Assembly: GCA_947499725.1 (NCBI GenBank)
Contig: CANMPK010000001.1
Coordinates: 558,001-622,000, forward strand
Direction: 5' to 3'
Origin: an uncultured Paracoccaceae bacterium
GTDB taxonomy: Bacteria; Pseudomonadota; Alphaproteobacteria; Rhodobacterales; Rhodobacteraceae
Length of the DNA stretch: 64,000 nucleotides
The position numbers and the translations under genes were made by a program. Position 1 is the first letter of the stretch, and every line of letters begins with the position of its first letter. The notes under the pieces were generated by a model. The model searched no databases, had not been told where the DNA came from, and saw nothing but the letters and a program-made list of their open reading frames with translations. Below, in pieces: positions 57,675 to 61,126 of this stretch.

Positions 57675-57842
57675 AGGAACCCTGGGGGGAGGCCATCTAA
57701 GGCTCCTCCAAATAACCCTCGGCGGGGGGTATATCCCGCCACGAATTCGGTTTCCGGACGGAATGCGTTTCGTCCGAAGCGATGCTTGGGCCGCAGGCAA
57801 AAAATCAGAGCGGTACAAAGAGTGAGCCCAAGCGGCGAAACT
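57675..57842. other. Non-coding 3' region of nrdJ with hairpins
   Basis: First part of a 335-bp stretch without a convincing gene before the cysS leader. It contains two hairpins: GGCGGG / CCCGCC (about 57721-57740) and CGGACG / CGTCCG (about 57755-57776). A 20-codon frame from 57763 exists, but it has no SD and looks accidental. Confidence 0.5.
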
Positions 57843-57865
57843 GGGGGGCGCTGCCCCCCGTTTTT
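57843..57865 (+). terminator. Terminator after nrdJ
   Basis: 7-bp all-GC stem GGGGGGC / GCCCCCC with a 3-base loop, followed by GTTTTT. It lies 168 bp past the nrdJ stop. Confidence 0.75.
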
Positions 57866-57925
57866 CGTTTTACGTCCAATTGTACATTTCAGGGGGCGAA
57901 AGGGGCGAATTGCCACCTTTTCAAC

Positions 57926-58004
57926 AGGTTAACGGCGCGTACGCTGGTAGGTTAACGGGGCCGTCGATTAGGCTCTTGACCCGATAGAGGCGGCTTTCTA
58001 TGGT
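57926..58004 (+). promoter_or_regulatory. Putative cysS promoter with direct repeats
   Basis: A -35 TTGACC (57976-57981), a 17-bp spacer and a -10 TATGGT (57999-58004) predict a start at about 58010-58012. That is the ATG of the leader peptide, so the transcript would be leaderless. Upstream, AGGTTAACGG occurs twice (57926-57935 and 57949-57958), 23 bp apart, 18 bp before the -35; possible activator sites. A second, perfect TATAAT lies at 58056-58061 with a weak -35. Confidence 0.45.
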
Positions 58005-58010
58005 CGCCTC

Positions 58011-58055
58011 ATGAACACACTGCAAACAATCATTATTTGCTGTATTACCTGCTGA
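58011..58055 (+). CDS. Cysteine-codon leader peptide of cysS (MNTLQTIIICCITC)
   Basis: 14-codon frame ATG..TGA ending 84 bp before cysS. Codons 10, 11 and 14 are Cys (TGC, TGT, TGC), preceded by three Ile codons; 3 of 14 is far above the usual Cys frequency of about 1%. Translation by ribosomes would stall when Cys-tRNA is short, which is the classic logic of attenuation before a cysteinyl-tRNA synthetase. No SD is seen, consistent with the predicted leaderless start at this ATG. Cys-codon leaders are known from mycobacteria; I do not know of one reported before an alphaproteobacterial cysS. Confidence 0.55.
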   Translation: MNTLQTIIICCITC

Positions 58056-58064
58056 TATAATCAC

Positions 58065-58112
58065 GCGGGCTGTTCTTCTATTTCAAAATACATGTGAACT
58101 TGCTAAGCCCGC
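58065..58112 (+). promoter_or_regulatory. Hairpin between leader peptide and cysS
   Basis: GCGGGCT (58065-58071) pairs perfectly with AGCCCGC (58106-58112) over a 34-base loop. A second small stem, AGCG / CGCT (58113-58116 with 58124-58127), ends two bases before the cysS ribosome binding site TTAAGGA. They could sequester or free the RBS depending on where a ribosome stalls on the leader. No T-run follows, so translational or Rho-dependent control is more likely than intrinsic termination. Confidence 0.4.
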
Positions 58113-58139
58113 AGCGCAAATGCCGCTTAAGGACGAGCC

Positions 58140-59507
58140 ATGACAACGATCCACCTGCACAATACGAAGACCCGCAAAAAAGAGGTCTTCACACCGATCG
58201 ATCCGACCAACGTGCGGATGTATGTCTGTGGCCCAACCGTCTATGATCGCGCCCACCTCGGCAACGCGCGTCCGGTTGTTGTGTTTGATCTGCTAAACCG
58301 TTTACTTCGTTACGTTTTTGGCGATGAAAACGTGGTGTACGCGCGCAATTTCACCGACGTCGACGACAAGATCAACGCCCGCGCCGCAGAAAGTGGACGC
58401 AAGATTGAAGAGATCACCGAAGAGACAATCGCCTGGTTCCTACAAGACATGGGGGAACTCGGCGCGCTAGAGCCAAACCACATGCCACGCGCCACGCGTT
58501 ACATCACGCATATGATTGAAATGATTGAAGGTTTGATCCAAAAGGGGCACGCTTACGAAGCAGAAGGGCATGTGCTGTTCTCTGTGGAAAGCTACGCCGA
58601 CTACGGCAAACTCTCCGGCCGCTCTGTGGATGACATGATCGCAGGCGCACGGGTTGAGGTCGCTCCTTACAAACGCAATCCGATGGATTTTGTCATGTGG
58701 AAACCGTCCTCCGATGACCTTCCAGGTTGGGAAAGCCCATGGGGCCGTGGCCGTCCGGGCTGGCATATTGAATGTTCTGCGATGGCGGATGATCTGCTTG
58801 GCGCGAACTTTGATATCCACGGTGGCGGCAATGATTTGATGTTCCCGCACCACGACAATGAGATCGCTCAAAGCTGCTGTTCGTCAGATGAAGGTCACTT
58901 CGCAAACTATTGGCTTCACAACGAAATGTTGCAAGTCGAAGGGAAGAAGATGTCCAAGTCTCTGGGCAATTTCTTCACCGTGCGCGACCTGCTGAACAAA
59001 GGCTTTTCAGGCGAGATCATCCGCTTTGTTTTCTTGTCCACCTACTACGGCAAGCCGATGGATTGGACAGAACTCAAAGCCAAAGACGCCGAAGCCACAT
59101 TGCGTAAATGGTATGCTGCGATTTCTGACGCAGAGACCGGCGACGTACCCGCGGAATTGATCGAAGCGCTGGCTGATGATTTGAACAGCTCCAAAGCGCT
59201 GACTGTTCTGCATACGTTGGCCAGCAAAGGCGACGCAGCAAGCCTGCGGGCAGGCATGGCGTTTTTAGGGTTCCTTGAAAAAGGCATCCCTGAATGGGCC
59301 GTCGCGCCGGATGTAGATCTTTCAGCCTTTGAAACCCTTTTGGCAGGTGCGCGTGAAAAAGCGATGCAAACCAAAGACTTCTCCGAAGTTGATCATCTAA
59401 AAACGGCTTTGATTGAAGCGGGTGTTGAAGTGCGCATGAGCAAAGCAGGCGTTGAATTATTGGCGGGTCCAAGTTTTGATGCCTCCAAACTGGAGGCGCT
59501 CGCATGA
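58140..59507 (+). CDS. cysS: Cysteinyl-tRNA synthetase
   Basis: Class I synthetase charging tRNA-Cys. 455 residues. [20 protein letters not shown] near 30-49 (HIGH-type, HLGN), [20 protein letters not shown] near 223-242 with Zn-binding residues, [20 protein letters not shown] near 269-288 (KMSKS). ATG preceded by TTAAGGACGAGCC. The cysS stop overlaps the cimA start by four bases. An upstream Cys-rich leader peptide may regulate it. Confidence 0.97.
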
Positions 59508-61126
59508 GCAAGGAACGTCTATATCTCTACGACACCACGCTGCGTGATGGTCAGCAAACGCAGGGCGTGCAGTTCTCAACCACTGAGAAACACCAGATCA
59601 GCGAAGCACTAGATGCGCTTGGGATCGACTATATCGAAGGCGGCTGGCCGGGTGCCAATCCAACAGATAGCGAATTCTTTGATAACCCACCGAAAACAAA
59701 GGCTGTTTTAACAGCTTTCGGCATGACCAAACGGGTGGGGATGTCAGCAGAAAACGATGATGTGTTGTCTGCCGTGCTAAACGCCAAAACCCCAGCAGTG
59801 TGTTTGGTGGGGAAGTCCCATGATTTCCACGTGGAAACCGCCTTGGGCATTACGCTTGATGAAAACCTAGAGAATATCGAGAAATCGGTCGCTCACATTG
59901 TCGCGCAGGGGCGCGAAGCGATGTTTGACGCGGAGCATTTCTTTGACGGGTTCAAAGCCAATCCAGACTACGCTCTGACAGCCGCTAAAACGGCCTATGA
60001 CGCCGGTGCGCGTTGGGTAGTGCTGTGTGACACCAACGGCGGCGCATTGCCATCAGAGGTCGCCACAGCCACCAAAGCGCTGATCGAAAAGGGCGTGCCG
60101 GGCGATCACATAGGTATTCATACGCACAACGACACTGAACATGCTGTGGCCAATTCCTTGGCGGCTGTGGATGCGGGCGCGCGTCAAATCCAAGGCACGC
60201 TGAATGGTTTGGGCGAACGTTGCGGCAATGCAAACCTGACCACATTGATCCCGATGATTGCGCTGAAAGAACCCTATGCCAGCCTCTATGAGACTGGAAT
60301 TACAGCAAAAACACTGGAAGGTATGACGCGTATCAGCCGCATGCTGGATGACATCTTGAACCGCGTTCCTGCCAAACAGTCCGCCTTTGTGGGCGCCAGC
60401 GCCTTTGCGCATAAGGCCGGCCTGCATGCCAGTGCGATCTTGAAAGACCCAACCACTTACGAACATGTCGACCCATCAAAGGTGGGCAATGATCGTATCA
60501 TCCCAATGTCCAACCAAGCTGGCCAATCCAACCTGCGCCGTCGCTTGGCAGAAGCGGGGATCGAGGTGGAGAAGGGCGATCCAGCCTTGGCGCGTATTCT
60601 TGAACGGATCAAAGCTAAAGAATCTCAGGGCTATTCCTTTGATACGGCGCAATCCAGTTTCGAATTGCTTGCTCGTGATGAATTGGGTCAATTGCCAAGC
60701 TTCTTCGAAGTGAAACGCTATAAGGTCACCGTCGAACGGCGCAAAAACAAACGAGATCAGATGGTTAGCCTGTCTGAGGCGGTTGTTGTCGTGAAAGTCG
60801 GCGGTGAAAAGAAACTGTCGGTTTCGGAATCAATGGATGAAACTGGGTCTGACCGCGGGCCAGTGAATGCCTTGTCCAAAGCTTTGGTCAAAGACCTTGG
60901 TCCTTACCAACATGCGATTGATGATATCCACTTGGTGGACTTTAAGGTGCGTATCACGCAAGGCGGCACCGAAGCGGTGACCCGTGTGATCATCGACAGC
61001 GAAGACAGCACGGGCCGTCGTTGGTCCACTGTGGGCGTCTCTGCCAACATCGTGGATGCGTCGTTTGAAGCCTTGGAAGACGCGATTGTCTGGAAGCTTT
61101 TGCGCGACAACGTTACGCCAGTCTAA
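59504..61126 (+). CDS. cimA: Citramalate synthase
   Basis: Joins pyruvate and acetyl-CoA to (R)-citramalate, a threonine-independent start for isoleucine synthesis. 540 residues. HMGL-like barrel with [20 protein letters not shown] near 7-26 and [20 protein letters not shown] near 203-222 with the metal-binding His pair, then the C-terminal regulatory domain typical of CimA and LeuA (about 410-540). Starts in a 4-base overlap with cysS. The alternative, 2-isopropylmalonate synthase, is less likely given the CimA-type N-terminus and length. Confidence 0.93.

Follow-up and report, generated by a model that had tools for sequence, protein, structure and literature searches.

A ribosome-mediated attenuator that senses cysteinyl-tRNA and controls cysS, the gene of cysteinyl-tRNA synthetase, together with cimA is likely to be the best explanation for the leader in front of cysS in the window, i.e. 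the whole stretch of 64,000 nucleotides analysed here. A sensing role for the Cys codons before cysS is highly likely, and termination at H1, a hairpin over the stop codon of the leader frame, is a reasonably likely output. The comparison of related loci has shown selection on the Cys frame, a kept promoter spacing, a covarying stop-codon hairpin and a rigid promoter-like motif; the element is real and selected, and is very probably a functional sensor of Cys-tRNA. A first-pass annotation had proposed a control element of this kind; its Cys leader before cysS and cimA is found to be under selection, and the hairpins which it had named for the control are not supported in that role.

The leader frame MNTLQTIIICCITC runs from ATG to TGA at 58011..58055 of the forward strand and has 14 codons, with the tandem Cys codons TGC TGT as codons 10-11 (58038..58043, +) and a third Cys codon at 58050-58052 (+). 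Its end is separated by 84 nt from the cysS ATG at 58140. Both strands of the window together hold 616 ATG frames with a length of 8-25 codons, and this frame was the only one among them with at least three Cys in the last five codons. The coordinates given to this frame by the first-pass annotation (14 codons, three Cys in the last five, 84 nt before cysS) were thus confirmed, and the promoter TTGACC-17-TATGGT which it had noted, here called P1, is present at 57976..58004 (+). The -10 box of P1 lies 6 nt before the leader ATG, and the transcription start is predicted at or next to this ATG, i.e. leaderless. The ribosome-binding site AAGGA of cysS was located at 58129..58133 (+). The cysS gene (58140..59507, +; 455 aa) matched NCBIfam TIGR00435 with 436 bits (cut-off 340), and cimA for citramalate synthase (59504..61126, +) matched NCBIfam TIGR00977 with 582 bits (cut-off 450). 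The 4-nt overlap of the two genes, on which co-regulation of cimA had been proposed, is correct, and cimA starts less than 300 nt past the cysS stop in 102 of the 110 loci compared. The upstream neighbour of the leader is a gene for vitamin B12-dependent ribonucleotide reductase, and a terminator-like G/C stem followed by TTTTTCGTTTT is seen between this gene and the leader (57842-57867, +). Rfam 15 at gathering score gave a single tRNA elsewhere in the window and nothing at the leader, and positions 57950-58200 gave no Rfam match up to E 5. No second copy of the leader was found in the genome of the window, where the next covariance-model match had an E of 5.98.

The 110 cysS loci consist of 30 from whole genomes (that of the window included) and 80 named ones; these two collections were not made unique by species. 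Most of the named loci are titled Rhodobacteraceae or Rhodobacterales, or by a genus which we take to belong there, and a few as Alphaproteobacteria only. An absence of the frame in close relatives, which would have spoken against the proposal, was not observed: an Ile/Cys frame was found in 101 of the 110 loci (98 by an automatic rule, and L029, L058 and L059 added by eye) and was missing in 9. The 101 frames code for 88 distinct peptides, and 290 of their 1382 codons are for Cys, which occurs somewhere in codons -4 to -6 of 100 frames. In the 98 automatically found loci the frame is 12-15 codons long, with Cys at codon -5 in 84 and at codon -4 in 75, ATT at codon -3 in 96 and a CC pair in 85; the Cys codons are TGC in 265 cases and TGT in 18. 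Single-base differences were counted from close pairs, which are not independent of each other, and in codons -3 to -8 130 of 169 were synonymous and 39 not (random expectation 0.194). Beyond this, from codon -9 on, 91 were synonymous and 358 non-synonymous (91/449), and in codons -1/-2, which form an arm of H1, none of 123 was synonymous. Owing to this pattern, we read the Ile/Cys stretch as held for its protein code and the N-terminus as free; conserved Cys codons with synonymous changes were what the first-pass annotation had named as support from an alignment of the region upstream of cysS. We take the last two codons to obey another rule, namely that of hairpin H1.

It is most improbable that a conserved DNA or RNA element merely happens to read as a frame here, without translation for regulation. 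Codons -1/-2 and some other bases do track the hairpin rather than the code; a bias towards synonymous changes that is confined to codons -3 to -8 speaks against such a reading, as do the Cys frames that precede cysS in other families and are not recognised by a model of this leader. Conservation of the amino acids in codons -3 to -8 would also be given by selection on the peptide, and hence an arrest peptide, in which the nascent Ile/Cys chain rather than slow decoding of Cys halts the ribosome, was considered. It is judged very unlikely, as the first CC pair is placed 3 (61 loci), 4 (19), 5 (5), 8 (1) or 0 (1) codons before the stop, 14 of the 101 loci have no CC pair, the residues beside Cys change between loci, and the frame sits before the gene of the very enzyme that charges tRNA-Cys. 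In one locus of the window's family (L130, from genome G022), the frame MNAPNRIIGIIIGG has kept the Ile-rich build and the hairpin over the stop, with Gly codons by eye at the positions where Cys is expected. With a covariance model of the leader, 92 of 120 genomes in the window's family gave a single match each, and cysS lies just downstream of the match in all 19 of these 92 for which cysS coordinates were at hand. Among 142 genomes from the whole class, the same model matched the window, one more member of its family and G111 of another family (E 0.009); this last match is rejected as a chance match because it lies more than 8 kb from the cysS of that genome.

The spacing of P1 was compared in 100 of the 101 loci with the frame, the upstream sequence of one being too short. 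In 96 of these 100 loci the -10 box ends at a distance of 6-7 nt from the ATG, and therefore the frame is probably leaderless, as had been suggested for the window; from this spacing we regard a leaderless start as quite strongly favoured. A -35 element with at least four of six matches to TTGACA was present in 92 of the 100 loci. The frame finder had rewarded a nearby TA, so that the -10 count, unlike the -35 count, is partly circular. With the spacing rule made narrower, the -35 score was reached by 92 of 100 leader ATGs versus 12 of 1147 ATGs in the window. A TATAAT at 58056, which the first-pass annotation had offered as an alternative start, is not likely to be a promoter because it lies inside hairpin H1 and its alignment columns are mostly of low conservation.

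Hairpin H1 (58049..58068, +) is formed by 58049-58056 with 58060-58063 and 58065-58068, leaving one bulged base. The last codon and the stop (CYGC UGA) lie within it and pair with GCGG, and it is terminator-like in its build. For the covariation analysis 75 of the 101 loci were aligned, after the removal of 20 near-duplicates or sequences shorter than 100 nt and of six divergent loci (L009, L019, L022, L028, L029 and L058). In this alignment 84.4% of the cells of H1 were paired versus at most 54.2% with the partner slid, and 33 both-side changes were counted versus 14.9 (sd 2.8) in shuffles, none of 500 shuffles being as high. Moreover, by corrected mutual information no column pair of the alignment covaries more strongly than the loop-closing pair of H1; the next one in rank (columns 105-110) lies outside both hairpins considered here and looks clade-linked. 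A bulge-free CCUGC/GCGGG register of H1 was discarded, with 57.9% paired and no covariation. The H1 segments of the relatives folded below the mean of their own shuffles in 93 of 98 cases. In the window, 58011-58085 folds into a stem holding the first Cys codon and H1 (z -2.40); the whole leader folds no better than its shuffles (z +0.31), and RNAalifold gave no consensus structure on the same alignment. The energy of H1 in the window is -4.9 kcal/mol, and a scan with terminator patterns did not list it. H1 is followed by the U-rich tract GCUGUUCUUCUAUUUC (58069..58084, +); over the 75 sequences a mean of 7.1 T was found in the 14 nt past GCGGGC, so the tract is about half T. In L028 an insert of about 15 bases makes a long near-perfect hairpin past the stop (GGTCGGGGCCCCCGACC), as if H1 had been reinforced.

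The first-pass annotation had placed the control in a long-range hairpin, here H2, in which GCGGGCU at 58065-58071 would pair with AGCCCGC at 58106-58112 over 7 bp (58065..58112, +). The complementarity itself is present and widely kept, with at least 6 Watson-Crick pairs in 88 of 101 loci and 88.9% of cells paired versus at most 46.9% when slid in the alignment. The compensatory changes expected in this stem were slight, since the both-side changes were matched by 180 of 500 shuffles; the score was matched by 10 and the share of paired cells by 4. The minimum-energy fold of the window leaves H2 unused, and the 3' arm of H2 shares bases with P2, a promoter-like motif (TTTCCA-N17-TAAGCC). Owing to little covariation beyond shuffles, absence from the best fold and the arm shared with P2, H2 was rejected as the switch and its role is doubtful; the switch is probably H1. 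Some support for H2 remains in the few shuffles that reach its paired cells and score, and in compensated arms in L051, L057 and L092, the last of which has no leader frame. Two other loci without the frame (L014 and L107) keep GCCCGC, and the GCGGGC partner was not seen in them. The small stem which had been proposed near the cysS ribosome-binding site was also rejected, as the 34 nt before the site fold no better than shuffles over the 101 loci (mean z +0.29; below -1 in 8 of 101).

In the window the proposed second promoter P2 reads TTTCAA-17-TAAGCC (58081..58109, +), with an extended -10 TG at 58101-58102. All but three of 75 sequences (72) have a spacer of exactly 17 nt, which carries little information in its middle, and the tract preceding P2 varies from 9 to 14 nt. 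The TG stands one base before the -10 element, with T in 70 and G in 72 of the 75 sequences, and the first -10 base is C in 7 of the 75. The pattern TT-17-TA with the extended -10 was found at 79 of 101 loci with the leader frame versus none of 101 equal stretches inside cysS, and TT-17-TA alone at 85 versus 12 of 101; these hexamers were taken from the very sequences in which they were counted. Six of the 9 loci without the frame also have TT-17-TA, in a somewhat longer searched stretch. A stricter P2 pattern matched the window once, which equals the chance expectation of 1.00. The -10 element TAAGCC is without T at -7, a base which more than 60% of the -10 elements of Rhodobacter sphaeroides lack as well and which is usually missing from alphaproteobacterial promoters (PMC8407463). 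From these sequence features, there is a good chance that P2 is active as a promoter.

A reading in which the Cys codons are sensed and act through Rho-dependent termination or on the translation of cysS, instead of through an intrinsic terminator at H1, would suit the C/U-rich tract past H1 with its imperfect U run and the complementarity of H2 kept in those 88 loci. This reading is unlikely in our judgement, given the covariation of H1 and its position over the stop codon, and given that the 34 nt before the ribosome-binding site have no excess structure and that transcripts from P2 would carry neither H1 nor H2.

In the preferred reading, termination at H1, the P1 transcript would begin at the AUG of the leader frame, as the promoter spacing suggests. 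When Cys-tRNA is plentiful, the ribosome would clear UGC UGU and be released at UGA; transcription would end in the U-rich tract once H1 had folded over the last codon, the stop and GCGG. When Cys-tRNA is scarce, the ribosome would stall at the tandem Cys codons and, judging from the geometry, occupy some of the 5' arm of H1 (58049-58056), so that the polymerase reads into cysS and cimA; with a footprint of the size we assume, the stalled ribosome would reach about 58050-58054. H1 is also covered while a ribosome stands at the stop codon, so that termination would need its release before RNA polymerase passes. P2 may supply basal transcription of cysS that escapes the attenuator.

Cys-codon frames that differ from that of the window were also found before cysS in other alphaproteobacterial families, namely in 24 of 27 loci of f10, 3 of 3 of f116, 3 of 3 of f4 and 3 of 4 of f121. 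For f10, 27 of 30 fetched loci were examined (L136-L162) and the fragmentary L163-L165 were left out; its 24 frames give 21 distinct peptides, e.g. MTCRCCRKNTTESLA or MTRRTTCCRTS..., and several of them are preceded by SD-like sequences. In the f10 group with an N-terminal MTCRxC, codon 3 is TGT in 14 of 14 frames and single changes in codons 2-7 were synonymous in 38 cases and not in 78; in its CCRTS group they were synonymous in 52 and not in 6. Nine f10 loci were folded and showed hairpins of -12 to -18 kcal/mol past the frame, followed in L136 and L160 by a U-rich stretch. Of the four f121 loci, one has its anchor within the gene and could not be used; the other three carry MKTAATIWCICCTIIIS or a close variant, and both of those folded form an 8-bp hairpin over the stop codon. 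The f116 frames (L180, L279 and L280, with 4, 5 and 7 Cys) lie 135-143 nt before cysS and are unlike one another outside Cys, and no strong hairpin was found past them. Those of f4 (L168, L169 and L281, with 3, 2 and 3 Cys) share little except for the terminal Cys cluster and end in CPCRCA, WCCA and CCCA. One f57 genome has MSNAHTIFICPIICR, and among 14 such loci only f57 reached E 1 with the leader covariance model (E 0.064). In many other families, represented by L112-L127 and L178, a long same-strand frame stands closely before cysS; that of L178 may code for a glutamyl-tRNA synthetase, judging by its motifs, and cimA overlaps cysS in L178 too.

A class-wide survey added the upstream regions of 109 other genomes (L166-L274). 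A Cys-rich frame was present in 24 of 125 regions versus 7 for the reverse strand; at least three genomes occur twice among the regions, and of the 24, two are from the window's family, one is from f10 and several lie inside a long upstream frame. As a residue control, 43 intergenic regions out of 107 other-family loci, with no f1 or f10 locus among them, gave forward versus reverse counts of 4 and 0 for Cys-rich frames, 0 and 0 for Trp, 0 and 1 for Met and 1 and 0 for His; common residues differ as well (Ile 8 and 1, Ala 7 and 3, Ser 3 and 7), and the Cys excess is suggestive in a small sample. The builds comprise a Cys pair near the end with a stop hairpin (window's family and f121), an N-terminal MTCRxC or CCRTS (f10), very Cys-rich frames (f116) and frame ends of CxCA, CCA or CCCA (f4). 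We lean slightly towards the joint view that Cys-codon leaders of cysS arose or diverged repeatedly in the Alphaproteobacteria with different builds, and that the window's family adds an unattenuated promoter past the terminator which would keep an essential enzyme on. Acting as proposed, the element of the window would let the charging of tRNA-Cys feed back directly on its synthetase, and this in a large group of bacteria. The leaders of the other families share mainly Cys codons, which allows asking how often such sensors evolve.

In attenuators of the trpL type, a ribosome that stalls at codons for the regulated amino acid decides on a downstream terminator, and stalling of this kind is proposed for the window; the difference is that here the stalled ribosome would cover the 5' arm of the terminator itself, and no separate antiterminator helix was found in the leader of the window. 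Leaderless polycysteine frames of mycobacteria were reportedly described by Canestrari et al. in 2020. According to the parts of the literature available to us, these frames have contiguous Cys codons and attenuate the downstream operon according to cysteine supply (PMC9031893, PMC9094748). They resemble the window in having a short Cys frame with a leaderless start, predicted in the window from promoter spacing, whereas they belong to another phylum, the target in the window is cysS, and the likeness does not come from sequence comparison.

The closest known system is the uORFC-8-2 motif, with 145 reported examples, all of them before cysS genes of Rhodobacterales (Brewer et al. 2021, PMC8632094). 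The first-pass annotation knew of no such element for alphaproteobacterial cysS; judging by the part of that paper at hand, the element of the window is the uORFC-8-2 motif and hence already known. The published account is one comparative paragraph, which reads the motif as ribosome-mediated attenuation with a conserved AUG, tandem Cys codons that are mostly UGC and usually at peptide positions 14 and 15, and two stems, with the Cys codons in the first and a U run past the last (PMC8632094). No experiment on the motif was seen in the available text of that paper, and no further paper on it was found in the open-licence PMC literature. The window agrees in its place before cysS in Rhodobacterales, in its tandem Cys codons, TGC being the main Cys codon of the relatives' frames, and in the fold of 58011-58085, with a Cys-codon stem and then H1, as compared with a description in words. 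It differs in having the tandem Cys at codons 10 and 11, within relatives' frames of 12-15 codons; this mismatch is not treated as excluding membership, since the published positions are given as usual ones and the numbering may start elsewhere. Further, the word leaderless occurs 0 times and a second promoter like P2 or leaders of other families are not mentioned in the text of PMC8632094 that was available, and the motif is said there to be exclusive to Rhodobacterales, whereas in our study cysS of other families is preceded by other Cys frames. The present analysis adds a predicted leaderless start, an exact stop-codon hairpin and a second promoter that is expected to be insensitive to cysteine. 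Thus uORFC-8-2 itself is known, and its mechanism is refined here with predicted start sites and a predicted output.
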